In this document: positions 2,949 through 36,105 of the stretch, piece by piece | Position numbering within the stretch: position 1 is the stretch's first letter | How the letters are laid out: every line of letters starts with the position of its first letter | Origin: a virus | Reading direction: 5' to 3' (one strand) | IMG/VR virus record: IMGVR_UViG_3300009514_000044 | Coordinates: 1 to 45,398 of that record | DNA: 45,398 bases | Made by a program: the position numbers and the translations under genes | The notes under the pieces: generated by a model | The model's input: the letters and a program-made list of their open reading frames with translations, nothing else | The model's database searches: none | Told to the model about the DNA's origin: nothing

Positions 2949-4830
2949 GACGGTCACCCGCGAGGACACCTCCACCCGGCTGCGCAAGCGCCGTCGCTTC
3001 GACAAGCGCGACTGGAAGTCCATCGCGGAGTACATCCTGCAGGAGTGGAAGGACCGCTCGAGGCGGCGCGGCGACCGCGAGAAGCACTGGAAGGAGATCG
3101 ACCGCCAGGTCGCGATGATCCCGCCCGAGCAGAAGTCGGGGCGCTCCGGCCAGCAGCCCGCGCCGCAGTGGTTGCCCGAGTTCGAGCTCCCCCTCCAGGC
3201 CCAGACGCTCGAGGTGCTGACCGCCGACGACCGGCGGATGATGTTCCCGCGAAACGCCCCCTGGTTTGTCTCGCACGCCGAGATGACCGAGCAGGGGATC
3301 CGGGACTTCAACCAGTACGTCAACCCGACGGGCAAGGAGACCGACGCGCAGACGCACTCCACGCAACTCGACCTCGACAGCGTGGTGACCGGCCTGCAGA
3401 TGACCTGGCAGTCGCGCTACGACTTCCGCGGCAACGTGACCCGGATCGCCGGCGAGCGCTACAAGTACGGCGACGGGGTCGGACGGGTCGTGCCGGTGAC
3501 GAAGCGCATCGTTCGCACCGGTGCGCGCGGCATGGAGGCAACGAACCTCGTCTTCCCGGCGCTGCTGCCGCGGACCATCAAGCAGACCTACCTCGACGAC
3601 CATTCGGTCGCGATCATGCACGAGGGGCACTACCTGTCCGGCGGCATCATCTTCGCGACCTCGAAGCGCTACGAGGATCTGGTGATCGCGGCGAAGAAGG
3701 GGGAGTCCGACCCGAACAAGGACGACGGCGGCTGGATGCCCTCGGCGCTCGGGCGCCTCAAGCCCGACGAGAAGGGCTTCATCGACGTGATCGAGTACGA
3801 GGGCGATCTGGTGATCCCCCGCTCGACCACCGACTCGATGGTGCTGCGCGGCGTGGTGGTGAGCGTCGCGGTCGCGAAGGCGGGGTCCGAGTTCGTGCAG
3901 GGCGACACCACCGGGGTTTTCCGCTTCCGGTGGCGCCAGGACGCCTTCAACTCCTACATCCACTTCCCGTGCTTCTACGAGGAGGACGTGACCGGCGCGT
4001 ACTCGTCCTCGCCGCTGATGAAGGGCCGCCCGCTCGCGGCCATCGCGCGCGACACCATGTCGAGAGCGATGGAGGCGGCGGCGCTGAACACCCAGCCGCC
4101 GGTGTCCTACGACCCGGACGACCCGCACATGCAGGCGACTGGCGGGCCACAGCTCTACCCCAACGCGACCATCCCGTCCGCGACCGGCATCAACGTCCAC
4201 AACGAAATCGGCAGCGTGTCGGACATGTGGCAGATGTACGTCGGCGTGCTCGCGCAGTACGCGGACGTGACCGGCATCAACGCGGCGCGGCTTGGCGCGC
4301 AGACCATCTCGCACACCACCGCGTTCGCGAAGGACGCGGAGCTCACCCGCGCCTCGGTGCGTACCGTCGACCACGTCGGCGAGGCCCTCGACGGGCCGCT
4401 CCAGCAGTTCCTCGACTACTCGTGGATGCTCGGGCGCCGGGTGTTTCGCAAGCAGGCGTGCTACGTCCAGCCGTTCGGCGGGTACGTGGACGTCGAGTCG
4501 AAGAAGGCGCTGCCCGAGCGGGTCGTGTGGGAGACCCACGGCTCGGGCACGCCGGCCGAGGAGGCGGCGAAGCTGCAGCAGCGCATAGCCGCCGTCCAGC
4601 AGGCGATCCAGGTCGAGGTGATGCGCCTACAAGTGGGCATGGAGCCGAAGCTCAACCTCGACGAGATCCAGAAGAGCATCCTCCGGGAGGGTGGATTCAC
4701 CGATGTCGACGCTTTCCTCAGCAGCCCAGGCGGCGCTCGCGCGCCTGCGATCGGACCCGGCGTTCCCGGAGGTTCTGGAGCACCTGCGCCCGGAGGTGGA
4801 TCACCGATTGCGCTGGTCGGAGGGGCGTAA
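2938..4830 (+). CDS. Portal protein
   Basis: 630 aa. It follows terL and precedes the scaffold and capsid genes. The N-terminal region is highly charged (TRLRKRRRFDKRDWKSIAEY), followed by LPLQAQTLEVLTADDRRMMFP and NAPWF, a block typical of podovirus-type portals, and a long C-terminal helical part with EEAAKLQQRIAAVQQAIQ. The last ~35 residues are Gly/Pro/Ala-rich (PGVPGGSGAPAPGGGSP) and share DNA with the next gene in another frame. It forms the dodecameric DNA entry/exit ring at one capsid vertex. Assignment rests on size, order and these weak motifs rather than on a catalytic signature. Confidence 0.88.
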   Translation: MPAETVTREDTSTRLRKRRRFDKRDWKSIAEYILQEWKDRSRRRGDREKHWKEIDRQVAMIPPEQKSGRSGQQPAPQWLPEFELPLQAQTLEVLTADDRRMMFPRNAPWFVSHAEMTEQGIRDFNQYVNPTGKETDAQTHSTQLDLDSVVTGLQMTWQSRYDFRGNVTRIAGERYKYGDGVGRVVPVTKRIVRTGARGMEATNLVFPALLPRTIKQTYLDDHSVAIMHEGHYLSGGIIFATSKRYEDLVIAAKKGESDPNKDDGGWMPSALGRLKPDEKGFIDVIEYEGDLVIPRSTTDSMVLRGVVVSVAVAKAGSEFVQGDTTGVFRFRWRQDAFNSYIHFPCFYEEDVTGAYSSSPLMKGRPLAAIARDTMSRAMEAAALNTQPPVSYDPDDPHMQATGGPQLYPNATIPSATGINVHNEIGSVSDMWQMYVGVLAQYADVTGINAARLGAQTISHTTAFAKDAELTRASVRTVDHVGEALDGPLQQFLDYSWMLGRRVFRKQACYVQPFGGYVDVESKKALPERVVWETHGSGTPAEEAAKLQQRIAAVQQAIQVEVMRLQVGMEPKLNLDEIQKSILREGGFTDVDAFLSSPGGARAPAIGPGVPGGSGAPAPGGGSPIALVGGA

Positions 4831-5584: not shown

Positions 5585-6673
5585 ATGGCACTCACCGTTT
5601 CCGCGACCGACTCGGAAGTCACGAAGCCGGTCAACACCATCTTCCAGCAGACGCTGCTGCGGCGTGCGCGCCGTCGCGCGCCCTACTTCATCGGATCGCG
5701 TCCGGGCGAGATCGAGCGCCGGCGCGGCACGGCGACCTGCACCTGGCGCCGGTACGCCAACCTCTTGGCGTCGACCACGGCGCTGTCCGAGCTCACCGGC
5801 AACGCCTCCTACGGGCAGGGCCGCACGCCGGCAACGCTCTCGGTCACCGACGTGACCGCGACGATGAGCAAGTACGGCAACTTCATCATCGAGAACGAGG
5901 AGGTGGACGTCTTCACCTACAACGCTCACGGTGACGAGGTCATGGGCGTGATGGGCGAGAACGCCGGTCACTCGCTCAACATCCTGCAGCGCAACCTCAT
6001 CGAGGACAACGCGACGGCGGTCTACTCGTCGAACGCGGCCTCGGCGGGTGCGGTCATCGCGACGCTCGCGGCGACCGATCTGCAGGTCGCGCTCAACGCG
6101 CTCGACGAGAACTCGGCCGAGCCGTTCGCGCCGATGACCACGGGCTCGCAGAACGTCGGCACCTCGCCGATCCTCCCCGCTTTCTGGGGGATCTGCCACC
6201 CGGATCTGGCGCGCGACATCGCGGTCAACATCACCGGCTTCACCTCGGTCGAGAAGTACGCCGGCCAGGTGGACGTGGTGTCGGGCGAGTTCGGCGCCTA
6301 CGGGCTCGCGGGCGTCGGCATCCGGTTCGTCTCGACGCCGCTCGGCGGCATCGACACCGGCGCCGGTGCTTCGGTCACGTCGCAGGACGTGTACGCCACC
6401 TCCGGCAGCGCGGACGTCTACAACCTCGTCATCCTCGGTCGCGACGCGATCGGCTCGGTCGGCCTCGGGGAGATGTACCCCGACGGGGTCTACCGCGCCG
6501 GCGACGACCTCGGGCCGGTGGAGATCATCGCGCACGGCCTCGGGTCGGGCGGCACCTCCGATCCCTACTCGGAGGTCGCGACGGTCGCCTGGAAGGCGTG
6601 GTGGACCGGCGCGGTCCTCAACGGCGACTGGGCCCGCGTGATCCGCACCGCGGCGACCAACATCAACAACTAG
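5585..6673 (+). CDS. Major capsid protein, N4-gp56 family
   Basis: 362 aa. The N-terminal part reads TKPVNTIFQQTLLRRARRRAPYF, then CTWRRYANLLASTTALSEL, GRTPATLSVTDVTATMSKYGNF and ENEEVDVF, the pattern of the N4-gp56 major capsid family (HK97 fold). ICHPDLARDI in the middle is the usual P-domain segment. ATG at 5585 is preceded by a GAGAG-type ribosome site. A strong terminator-like hairpin follows the stop, as expected for the most highly expressed virion gene. Confidence 0.9.
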   Translation: MALTVSATDSEVTKPVNTIFQQTLLRRARRRAPYFIGSRPGEIERRRGTATCTWRRYANLLASTTALSELTGNASYGQGRTPATLSVTDVTATMSKYGNFIIENEEVDVFTYNAHGDEVMGVMGENAGHSLNILQRNLIEDNATAVYSSNAASAGAVIATLAATDLQVALNALDENSAEPFAPMTTGSQNVGTSPILPAFWGICHPDLARDIAVNITGFTSVEKYAGQVDVVSGEFGAYGLAGVGIRFVSTPLGGIDTGAGASVTSQDVYATSGSADVYNLVILGRDAIGSVGLGEMYPDGVYRAGDDLGPVEIIAHGLGSGGTSDPYSEVATVAWKAWWTGAVLNGDWARVIRTAATNINN

Positions 6674-30171: not shown

Positions 30172-30789
30172 ATGATGCAATTTCAGATTCAGCGGGAACA
30201 CTTCAACGCGCTTCGCGTCGCGGCTGCGATGAACGACGTGCGCTACTACCTCGCGGGATTCCACGTGCACAAGAACGGGGAATGGTGGGCCGAGTCCACC
30301 GACGGGCACCGGCTGCTCCGTGTGCCGTTGACCCGGATCGATGACGGGCCCGACCCTTCCGATACCGGGCGCATGATCTATTCGCTCGCGGACGCGACCC
30401 GCAAGTTCAGCAAGCGCTCGGGCGAGACGATCACGATCGACGTGCCGAATCTCGACGACGCGTTGACCGTCGAAGGCGACGCGGTCTCGCGCGGTGCGCG
30501 GGTCACGGGCACCGACGGGCGCGTGCAGGTTTGCCCGTTGATCGACGGTAAGTTCCCGGATACGGACAAGGTCATGCCGGCCGGGCCCGCCGACGGCGCG
30601 AGCGTGTCGTGCATCGCGGTCAACGCGCAGTATCTCGCGGATGTCCCGAAGGCGCTGGAGGCGCACGGCATGGTCGCGGTGCGGCCGTCGGGAACGGAGA
30701 CGGCCGAGGGCGCGCCGACCGGACCGTTGTGGGTCGACATTCACGATGCGGACGACGTGCGCTACATCGTGATGCCGTGCCGGGTGTAG
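30172..30789 (+). CDS. DNA polymerase sliding-clamp-like (beta-clamp fold) protein
   Basis: 205 aa, about half a bacterial DnaN. NDVRYYLAGFHVHKNGEWWAES followed by TDGHRLLRVPL matches the clamp pattern (R.YL.Gv.v.....v.aTDGhRL), and IDGKFPDTDKVMP matches the later EG.(Y/F)PD...v.P element. It contains about two clamp-type domains, so a trimer is possible, as in PCNA/gp45 clamps. No phage polymerase is present; it may bind host Pol III or act in late-gene control or nucleases. GAGGAAAG ribosome site before ATG 30172/30175. Confidence 0.65.
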   Translation: MMQFQIQREHFNALRVAAAMNDVRYYLAGFHVHKNGEWWAESTDGHRLLRVPLTRIDDGPDPSDTGRMIYSLADATRKFSKRSGETITIDVPNLDDALTVEGDAVSRGARVTGTDGRVQVCPLIDGKFPDTDKVMPAGPADGASVSCIAVNAQYLADVPKALEAHGMVAVRPSGTETAEGAPTGPLWVDIHDADDVRYIVMPCRV

Positions 30790-31509: not shown

Positions 31510-32109
31510 GTGAAACCACCCGCACGCGGCAATCCAGCCGAACTAGTCGCTCCCAGGCTGCCCGAGGGCGCGCCGGACGCTGCAGCGGCTCTCGGTGGCT
31601 CCCAGGCCTTCCGGTCGCTCACTCCGACGCTACAGCGGCTCGCGCTTGAATACCTGCGCACCGGGCGCATCGGGCAGGCTGCTAAACTCGCCGGAATGAG
31701 CCGTGGACACGCGAGCCGAGTGATGGCGCGAGACATGACGCTGCAACGGGCAATCGAGGATGTGGCGGCGATGGCGGTCGATGAGGCAATGCTCACGCCG
31801 CAGCTGCTGCGGACCATGATGCTCAGGGAGGCTACCAGCCCGGAATCAGAGTCTCGGGACCGGCAGTATGCCATCAGCAGGCTGTATCAGTGGTTGGGGC
31901 ATGAGACGCCTGATGTCGGGGATACTGTGACGGCGGCCCTTGAAGCGCTGCGTCTCATCGAAGCCATCGCACCCGAACGGCTCCCGGAGGCGCGCGCTGC
32001 GCTCGCGGGCCGGCTGCTGGGGCCCGCAGAGGGCGCCGAAAGTGTCCTGAAAGCGACATCGGAAGGCCATAATCAGCCGGATCGGGGTAACGGACCCGTA
32101 ACCGACTGA
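31510..32109 (+). CDS. terS: Putative terminase small subunit
   Basis: 199 aa from GTG at 31510, without a Shine-Dalgarno; TAGACT lies 8 bases upstream, so a leaderless message is possible. TLQRLALEYLRTGRIGQAAKLAGMSRGHASRVMARDMTLQRAIEDV is the HTH and following helix typical of small terminases (AA..AG.s...a.r......v..ai). The long middle helix and flexible C-terminus also fit. It would bind the packaging site and recruit TerL. Another Terminase_2/phage HTH protein is the alternative. Confidence 0.65.
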   Translation: MKPPARGNPAELVAPRLPEGAPDAAAALGGSQAFRSLTPTLQRLALEYLRTGRIGQAAKLAGMSRGHASRVMARDMTLQRAIEDVAAMAVDEAMLTPQLLRTMMLREATSPESESRDRQYAISRLYQWLGHETPDVGDTVTAALEALRLIEAIAPERLPEARAALAGRLLGPAEGAESVLKATSEGHNQPDRGNGPVTD

Positions 32110-32158: not shown

Positions 32159-32283
32159 TCAAATAGGTGCCTCGACGGCCCTGCCAGACCCGATCGAGCG
32201 GCCGCCAGGCGCGACCTCGAGCACCCCCCTCGCTTCGAGTACGAGTGCCCTTCCCACCCCCGATCCCCCCCCAGAAAACCCCC

Positions 32284-32312
32284 TTGCCAACCCGCAACCC
32301 CTGCCTGATGAT
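32284..32312 (+). promoter_or_regulatory. TTGC-N6-GCAA operator and weak promoter before the GGQ gene
   Basis: Exact palindrome at 32284-32297. TTGCCA (32284-32289) and GATGAT (32307-32312) are 17 bp apart, 6 bases before ATG 32319. This supports 32319, rather than the upstream in-frame GTG at 32151, as the start of the next gene. Confidence 0.5.
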
Positions 32313-32318
32313 ACGCCG

Positions 32319-32708
32319 ATGCGCTCCTACACTCGCCGCGACTTCGAGGTGCAGTGGTTCTCCGGCACGGGTCCGGGCGGCCAGCATCGGAACAAGCACC
32401 AGAACTGCTGCCGCATCATCCACCGGGAGAGCGGTCTGCGGGCGAGCTCGACGCGCCATCGTGAGCGCCAGGCTAACCTTCGGGCGGCGTTTCACCGGTT
32501 GGCGGGGTTGCTGCTCGCTGCGGAGGCTGGGGAGGCTGAGAGGCGCTCCGGCAACGAGGTGGTGCGGACCTATCACTTCGAGCGGGGGGAGGTGATTGAC
32601 CACGGGTCCGGGCTGCGCTCGACGACCTCGAGGGTGATGGACGGCGACCTCGACGAGTTCCGGGCGGGGCATGACGGGCGCGCGCTGCCGCGCACGGGGC
32701 GTGTGTAG
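32319..32708 (+). CDS. Stand-alone GGQ (RF-1 domain) release-factor-like protein
   Basis: 129 aa. The class I release-factor catalytic domain is present: WFSGTGPGGQHRNKHQNCCR with GGQ at residues 20-22, then IIHRESGLRAS, RHRERQANLRAAFHRL. The C-terminal EVVRTYHFERGEVIDH and RVMDGDLDEFRAG match the RF1/RF2 domain-3 end (xRTYxF...VxDHR..., xxDGxLDxFI). The stop-codon-reading domain (PxT/SPF) and domains 1 and 4 are absent. It resembles ArfB/PrfH-like rescue factors but without the basic ArfB tail. It would hydrolyse peptidyl-tRNA on ribosomes, perhaps stalled or damaged ones. Own operator-bearing promoter. Confidence 0.85.
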   Translation: MRSYTRRDFEVQWFSGTGPGGQHRNKHQNCCRIIHRESGLRASSTRHRERQANLRAAFHRLAGLLLAAEAGEAERRSGNEVVRTYHFERGEVIDHGSGLRSTTSRVMDGDLDEFRAGHDGRALPRTGRV

Positions 32709-35126: not shown

Positions 35127-35203
35127 TCGTCAGCCCCGCACGACCGAAGGGAACGTATCGTCCCGAGTGGCGGTCGTGCGGGGCCGACATGGAGGAAGCA
35201 TGA
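35120..35203 (+). CDS. 27-residue possible leader peptide over a hairpin
   Basis: ATG 35120 with GAGGGGCG upstream overlaps the previous stop. The short frame (MVIVSPARPKGTYRPEW...) runs through the 35134-35183 hairpin and stops over the DUF5131 ATG. It may be a translated leader controlling the next gene, or not be translated at all. Confidence 0.3.
   Translation: MVIVSPARPKGTYRPEWRSCGADMEEA
35134..35183 (+). promoter_or_regulatory. Long RNA hairpin before the DUF5131 gene
   Basis: CCCCGCACGACCG (35134-35146) and its exact complement (35171-35183) give a perfect 13-bp stem, with an inner GGGA/TCCC stem in the 24-base loop. It ends 8 bases before GGAGGAAG, the ribosome site of the gene at 35200. 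No T run follows, so translational control or mRNA processing is likelier than termination. Confidence 0.5.
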
Positions 35204-36105
35204 CGAACATCGAATGGACCGACGAGACGTGGAACCCCGTGCGCGGCTGCTCGCGCGTGTCGGCCGGCTGCGAGAACTGCTACGCCGAGCGCACCGCGAT
35301 CCGCATGGCCGGGCCGGGCGGGCATTACGAGGGCCTCGCGCGCAAGGTCAACGGGCACCCCGTCTGGACCGGCGAGGTCCGGTGCCTGCCGGAACTGCTC
35401 GACCGGCCGCTGCGGTGGCGCAAGCCGCGGCGGGTGTTCGTCAATTCGATGAGCGACCTGTTCCACGAGAAGGTGCCGGACGAGTTCATCGATCGGGTGT
35501 TCGACGTGATGGAGCGCTGTCCGCAGCACATCTTCCAGGTGCTCACGAAGCGGCCGGTGCGGATGTGGAAATACCTTTCCGAGGCCGTGCCGGTGCGTCC
35601 GGAGGCGTGGCCTCTCCCCAACGTCTGGCTCGGCGTTTCCGTCGAGGACCAAGCGACGGCCGACGAGCGCATCCCCGTCCTGCTCGACACGCCGGCCGCG
35701 GTGCGGTGGGTGAGCGCGGAGCCGCTGCTCGTGCCGGTGGACATGGCTCGGTGGCTGCGCCACGGCGCGCCGGTCTATCCGTCGAAGCACGCCTATCGTC
35801 GCCGTGAGCGGCTCGACTGGGTCGTGACCGGCGGCGAATCCGGCCCCGGCGCGCGGCCGTGCGACGTGGCGTGGATCCGCAGCATCGTCGAGCAGTGCCG
35901 GGCAGCGGCGATCCCGGTGTTCGTGAAGCAGCTCGGAGCGCGCGTCTCCGGCCGGGTCAACCACCCGGACAACGAGGGCTACGGCGTACACGACGTTCGC
36001 CTCGATGACCGCAAGGGCGGCGACCCGGCCGAGTGGCCCGAGGACCTGCGCGTGCGGGAGTGGCCCGACACACAGCCCGCCACCGCGCGGGCGGGAGAGG
36101 AGTGA
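35200..36105 (+). CDS. Phage Gp37/Gp68 family protein (DUF5131)
   Basis: 301 aa. The N-terminus IEWTDETWNPVRGCSRVSAG with CENCYAER is the family hallmark (IeWTd.TWNP..GC..vS.GC.nCYA), followed by VFVNSMSDLFHE, FQVLTKRP and WVVTGGESGPGARP. The three N-terminal cysteines recall radical-SAM/Fe-S cluster sites, but the reaction is unknown. Length is normal. A GGAGGAAG site and a strong hairpin lie just upstream. Confidence 0.88.
   Translation: MTNIEWTDETWNPVRGCSRVSAGCENCYAERTAIRMAGPGGHYEGLARKVNGHPVWTGEVRCLPELLDRPLRWRKPRRVFVNSMSDLFHEKVPDEFIDRVFDVMERCPQHIFQVLTKRPVRMWKYLSEAVPVRPEAWPLPNVWLGVSVEDQATADERIPVLLDTPAAVRWVSAEPLLVPVDMARWLRHGAPVYPSKHAYRRRERLDWVVTGGESGPGARPCDVAWIRSIVEQCRAAAIPVFVKQLGARVSGRVNHPDNEGYGVHDVRLDDRKGGDPAEWPEDLRVREWPDTQPATARAGEE

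Follow-up and report, generated by a model that had tools for sequence, protein, structure and literature searches.

What might a phage do with a release-factor-like protein that has no reading head? This question is raised by a gene at positions 32,319 to 32,708 of the window, the whole 45,398-nucleotide stretch of viral DNA that was analysed. The gene encodes a genuine, conserved, headless release-factor-like phage protein, which belongs to a group of sequences that we call clade B. Its sister group, clade A, is RF1-like without domain 1 but with the PxT reading head kept, and is the more surprising result of the two.

The gene and its product

The 129-residue product matches the Pfam RF-1 family (PF00472) with an E-value of 3.1e-13 and 50.1 bits against a curated cut-off of 35, GGQ included; no other RF-1 gene occurs on the virus record of 45,398 bp. 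The ATG at 32319 agrees with the N-termini of the closest relatives (L002 and L003), and no clear Shine-Dalgarno sequence is seen before it. The features of the gene are:

32319..32708, + strand: coding sequence for the headless release-factor-like protein of clade B, 129 amino acids (translation of the ATG frame; Pfam RF-1)
32334..32525, + strand: domain 3, the GGQ catalytic domain, residues 6–69 (Pfam match over 6–95; AF2 pattern of strands 9–13, 31–35 and 41–44 and helix 50–69)
32376..32384, + strand: GGQ motif, residues 20–22 (read directly; invariant in the 64 aligned members)
32385..32414, + strand: signature HRNKHQNCCR, residues 23–32 (H23 to N29 and R32 invariant, C30 and C31 almost invariant)
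32562..32672, + strand: domain-4 remnant, residues 82–118 (VRTYHFERGEVIDHG...VMDGDLDEF...), aligning to RF1 at about 283–319 and to the end of RF2 (AF2 hairpin 83–94 and helices 103–118)

The first-pass annotation had pointed to the GGQ loop and to two C-terminal motifs of RF1/RF2 type, RTYHF...VIDH and MDGDLDEF, and all of these are found in the protein, the loop at residues 20–22. It had also placed the gene beside the small terminase gene and given it an operator-bearing promoter of its own. Upstream of the gene we find:

31510..32109, + strand: neighbouring gene, possibly the small terminase subunit, a weak assignment (phrog_51, E=6e-4; phrog_4044, E=3e-3; no Pfam match)
32204..32233, no strand assigned: imperfect palindrome (72%), the sole local candidate for an operator, not distinguishable from chance
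32284..32312, + strand: the sole upstream sigma-70-like match, TTGCCA-17-GATGAT, 9/12 (mean of 0.1 in shuffled sequences)

The neighbouring gene is present with a weak identity, its better match being that to phrog_51, and the promoter with its operator is unsupported, the scan yielding a single 9/12 match and a single palindrome. The promoter-like match stops 6 nt short of the ATG, would give a leaderless mRNA at best and is no evidence of function. A sliding-clamp-like gene, which also matches a PHROG named RusA-like resolvase, lies at 30172–30789 of the window.

Domains 1 and 2 are missing and domain 4 is retained

A profile was built from the 64 aligned members, two of which (L065 and L080) belong to clade A. 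Its best matches among solved structures are to RF1 and RF2 over nearly the whole length (E of about 1e-23), with profile positions 3–123 aligning to RF1 189–319 and positions 5–126 to RF2 232–362 of 365. C12orf65 (E=1e-11) and PrfH gave lesser matches over the GGQ part, and ArfB barely matched. From these alignments it follows that domains 1 and 2 are gone while domain 4 is kept. The start of the protein is equivalent to about residue 189 of RF1, such that domain 1, which makes the contacts with RF3 and L11, is absent, and neither the protein nor any frame of the same strand within 600 bases upstream contains a PxT or SPF reading-head motif. The NCBIfam prfA and prfB models score just 34–46 bits against cut-offs of 370–423. 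The loss of domains 1 and 2 had been read correctly at first; the accompanying claim that domain 4 is also missing was wrong, as the last 45 or so residues form domain 4 of the superdomain 2/4 of release factors, aligned as far as RF1 319 and RF2 362. Between this and the GGQ domain the alpha-7/switch-loop stretch is some 12–15 residues shorter than that of RF1. An assignment of the RTY...DH segment itself as the switch loop was dropped, since published descriptions put the switch loop just before this segment, in the stretch that is shortened here.

The AF2 model of the protein has a mean pLDDT of 80, the domain-4 part having values of about 90 up to residue 110 and 71 for residues 111–120. 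It consists of two confident units, the GGQ domain on the one hand and the hairpin of residues 83–94 with the helices of 103–118 on the other; with a pTM of 0.51 the model does not fix their mutual placement. Comparison with ArfB, PrfH and RF2 had been proposed as a check on the protein, and in a Foldseek search with the model RF1 and RF2 rank first. Together with the profile matches this supports the original reading of a stand-alone GGQ factor of RF1/RF2 ancestry. The absence of an ArfB-like basic tail also stands, because the net charge over the C-terminal 30 residues is +1 for the window protein, and +1 as the family median, compared with +4 to +10 in six ArfBs.

Clade B is a conserved and mostly viral family

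Searches of IMG/VR returned 239 homologous stretches with the single protein as query and 372 with the alignment, giving a clade of at least 372. Cellular relatives are few (11 stretches in 84,980 bacterial and archaeal species genomes), and the relatives are mostly viral. A DNA search of the window locus against isolate phages gave no match. In the 64-member alignment 19 residues, GGQ among them, are invariant, and the median pairwise dN/dS is 0.107 in a set that includes the two clade-A members. Clade B is under strong purifying selection, and this, together with the 239 to 372 homologues, means that the ORF is not a chance one.

The clade is recognised by the motif GGQHRNKHQN, by about 110 residues following the GGQ and by the domain-4 end RTY...DH, all of which the window protein has. 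Its signature, GGQHRNKHQNCCR, stands in place of the GGQHVNxxxSAxR of RF1 and RF2, the residues that match the signature in the host RF1 and RF2 being HVN(T/K/R)xxSAxR. In a tree of 75 sequences running from the GGQ to the end, with 140 usable columns and hence an uncertain deeper order, clade B is monophyletic (100/98), clade A (97/85) is its sister and the two join with support of 100/98. RF1, RF2 and ArfB are each separate, and clade B lies apart from these and from PrfH. Just outside clades A and B is a third group of phage RF1-like proteins without domain 1 (L287, L288 and L289), which have GGQHQNK or GGQHKNR and no in-frame stop.

Many clade B genes lie among phage tRNA genes

Within 6 kb of the clade-B gene, tRNA genes are found in 41 of the 63 non-redundant loci, and are missing from the other 22. 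A tRNA or tmRNA lies within 150 nt of the gene in 28 loci, where random placement in the same loci would give 6.4 (P of about 1e-16, by a statistic that ignores relatedness among the phages). All 64 RNA genes near the factor are on its strand, and in 22 loci they flank it on both sides. The association recurs in separate branches, namely those of L003, L007 (at 157 nt) and L076 and a large branch of 124-residue proteins. The two closest relatives of the window gene sit by arrays of 16 (L002) and 21 (L003) tRNAs; the 45,398-nt window itself contains no tRNA gene. Phage tmRNA genes are present in six clade-B loci (L047, L050, L053, L056, L059 and L064). As a control we took DUF5131, a family from the same window, which has a tRNA in 6 of 80 loci, none of them adjacent, and no tmRNA. 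The window member of this family, a phage Gp37/Gp68 gene, is at 35167–36105 (E=1e-85).

Clustering of the neighbours revealed no conserved protein partner, with no family common to more than 12 of 77 loci and tRNAs as the commonest neighbours. No defence or repair gene recurs in Pfam and PADLOC scans of the neighbours, and no RtcB or RNA-ligase partner is seen among 25 of the 42 neighbour families listed. For the ten genes beside relatives in bacterial genomes PADLOC gave a single weak match, to peptidase_U41 (E=4.5e-4). A DUF2828/DUF7788 protein, which we take to resemble Ro60/TROVE-type proteins, recurs near the tRNA arrays (L052:7747–9192, with homologues in seven other loci). Directly upstream of the factor in one locus is a gene that weakly matches von Willebrand A (L016:4944–5981), whose homologues lie near the factor in five more (L002, L007, L012, L025 and L063).

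A probable role in ribosome rescue

It would seem fairly likely that the window protein, made by the phage, hydrolyses peptidyl-tRNA without regard to the codon and so rescues ribosomes in infected cells; its catalysis, its ribosome binding and its substrate are inferred. Its ancestor would be a release factor of RF1/RF2 type that lost domain 1 and, with domain 2, the codon reader. The GGQ domain would enter the peptidyl-transferase centre of a ribosome with an empty or tRNA-starved A site and there hydrolyse the peptidyl-tRNA, while the hairpin and helices of domain 4 might sit towards the A site, in the position of RF1 domain 4, and serve as an anchor in place of the mRNA-channel tail of ArfB. 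Given that its relatives lie among phage tRNA genes, the factor probably frees stuck ribosomes, in infection those stalled by cut or scarce tRNAs or mRNAs, and would so complement the phage tRNA arrays that house many of the relatives. Presumably the phage of the window, which has no tRNA, also uses its factor for rescue. Rescue from stalling by host defence nucleases had been suggested at the outset; rescue has gained independent support from the place of the clade in tRNA arrays, at times with tmRNA, whereas the direct link to host nucleases has not, the weak peptidase_U41 match being all that PADLOC offers for those ten genes and the window being without tRNA. Phages are already known to carry tRNAs, tmRNA/SmpB, release factors and peptidyl-tRNA hydrolases, and several hundred headless GGQ factors, many of them inside tRNA arrays, are likely to be a ribosome-rescue addition to this kit.

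Other explanations have to be weighed against rescue of 70S ribosomes. The factor could act on split large subunits or on dropped-off peptidyl-tRNA rather than in the 70S A site, as does the mitochondrial C12orf65/mtRF-R, which likewise joins a GGQ domain to a short C-terminal extension, lacks a domain for codon reading and matches the profile at E=1e-11. We regard this as unlikely, as the C-terminal unit corresponds to domain 4 of RF1/RF2, RF1 is matched far better and over the whole length, and the neighbours share no candidate partner. The neighbours also bear on the idea, to which we give slightly less weight still, that the protein is one half of a split system whose other half, be it another protein of the phage or, as in ArfA-RF2, one of the host, supplies decoding or anchoring. 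Domain 4 normally packs on the domain 2 that is missing here and, left exposed, could serve for docking to a partner, with which the pTM of 0.51 would be consistent; no neighbour family, however, is present in more than the 12 of 77 loci noted above, and the commonest neighbours are tRNAs.

A headless GGQ factor without a codon check might instead shut off the host by releasing nascent chains indiscriminately and so aborting host translation, and overexpression of RF2 is indeed toxic in B. subtilis (PMC12421855). The linkage to tRNA arrays and tmRNA points rather to sustained translation, which the phages themselves need, making shut-off improbable. That the gene is a decaying, functionless remnant of a captured release factor might be suspected from its small size and from a piece of domain 4 kept without the support of domain 2, but is contradicted by the dN/dS and the 19 invariant residues; with a clade-specific invariant signature and several hundred phage contigs as well, we give it hardly any credence. 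Ribosome rescue by a codon-independent hydrolase remains our preferred explanation.

The sister clade carries an in-frame UGA

Upstream of the clade-A members from bacterial genomes, and of those from two phages, the same frame encodes an RF1 domain 2 with its PxT head (GGHRIQRVPPTE..GRVHTS), and a TGA interrupts this frame. A dedicated scan gave 75 phage loci, 72 of them in clade A (L215–L286). In 71 of these 72 the TGA is at the same place (69 of the 70 parsed, along with L224 and L282), the exception being L276; examples of the region are L215:2968–3069 and L219:2935–3036. Six bacterial loci and two plasmids (Bosea and Rhizobium leguminosarum) also have the TGA (L084, L085, L087, L089–L091, L212 and L213). 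Across 385 alphaproteobacterial genomes the in-frame TGA was found, among the matches listed, in the centre genome alone, which gives no hint that it is widespread in bacteria. The reading frame is the same before and after the TGA, which sits exactly at a conserved Trp codon of RF1 (TGG in 25 of 30 matched RF1/RF2 sequences). The residues on either side resemble those of RF1 and show purifying selection (0.25 ahead of the UGA and 0.15 after it). With the UGA read as Trp, the 221-residue product is modelled with a pLDDT of 88.5 and a pTM of 0.74, and superposes on ribosome-bound RF1 with a TM score of 0.91 and an rmsd of 2.0 Å.

The UGA is probably a site of programmed readthrough that gates expression, in which case the gene may sense termination capacity. 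A reassigned code was rejected because TGA serves as the stop for 120 of 258 long frames in these loci. Selenocysteine was rejected for the six clade-A-bearing genomes searched (five with the in-frame UGA and that of Hahella), all of which lack SelA, with E. coli positive as a control. An internal start after the UGA was likewise set aside, 39 of 67 genes having no ATG, GTG or TTG in the stretch from the UGA to the reading head. The surroundings of the UGA showed no conserved RNA structure. In a single clade-A locus ARAGORN reports a tRNA with a UCA anticodon, of the SeC type and a possible UGA decoder (L284:5202–5273, − strand).

Two loci have a different arrangement. L086 (Hahella) has TGG where the TGA is otherwise found, and then CTT TAG C (5826–5834) with a +1 frame change; in L276 the TGA is followed by the same sequence (3000–3008) and frame change. 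CUU followed by a stop is the shift site of prfB (PMC5009743), which these sites resemble, but with the RF1 codon UAG. In a 2025 survey of 8,164 genomes TAG never occurred in the prfB motif, and prfA showed no programmed recoding (PMC12421855). According to a 2016 review, an in-frame UGA with a continuing frame was once considered for RF2 genes, but no release-factor gene of bacteria was known to have one; nor was a corresponding UAG known for RF1, a giant-virus release factor being the only precedent (PMC5009743). No literature report of the phage clade was found in a search that most subscription papers and preprints lay outside.

We lean slightly towards clades A and B being a single phage lineage with one ancestor, in which A is switched on by readthrough of the UGA at the RF1 Trp codon and B is the ungated rescue branch. 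If the readthrough is real, phages of clade A would make a minimal release factor only when UGA termination fails, and the clade would provide the first example, in phages and bacteria, of readthrough of a same-frame stop codon gating a class-I release-factor gene. It makes the decades-old same-frame proposal for RF2 directly testable.

Comparison with known systems

Such proteins already have domain labels in databases, though the labels contain nothing of mechanism, tRNA arrays or domain 4. Of the 64 members, 63 or all 64 match PHROGs 3122 and 20323 ('RF-1 domain peptide chain release factor') and 19918 (unknown function), the match of the window protein to 3122 and 20323 covering the GGQ part only. 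Huge phages have been reported with RF1, RF2 and tmRNA (PMC7162821), and among the rescue tools named in a survey of jumbo phages are tRNAs and peptidyl-tRNA hydrolases (PMC7824862). In a published survey, an RF-1-domain gene is the core of the mycobacterial G1 tRNA arrays and extra rescue factors are suggested to be needed (PMC5966550); this gene has the same domain and the same tRNA-array setting and may belong to clade B. Among cultured phages, gp125 of Tunturiibacter phage Tunturi_3 has the GGQHRN motif and 48% identity over 60 residues, but differs in its C-terminus, which has no RTY...DH segment; this gene and a homologue in Tunturi_4 are the closest cultured-phage relatives that the searches gave.

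The GGQ domain and domain 4 of RF1 and RF2 (prfA and prfB) align end to end with the window protein, which differs from them in having no domain 1, no PxT/SPF domain 2 and a shortened alpha-7/switch loop; clade B also has its own HRNKHQNCC signature and forms a separate clade. PrfH, of the RtcB2-PrfH system, is also a release factor without domain 1 and is used against damage to the translation apparatus, but it keeps a modified domain 2, which the window protein lacks, and has RtcB2 as a partner; the PrfH model (TIGR03072) gives the window protein 38.1 bits against a cut-off of 166.65. C12orf65/mtRF-R shares the plan of a GGQ domain with a short extension, but is mitochondrial and matches more weakly, mainly over the GGQ part. 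ArfB/YaeJ is a stand-alone codon-independent GGQ factor, as the window protein appears to be, yet has a long basic mRNA-channel tail that the window protein does not, forms a distant clade and has a family model that matches 11 of the 64 members, weakly. Clade B would be a new way of placing a GGQ, with neither a reading head nor the tail of ArfB.
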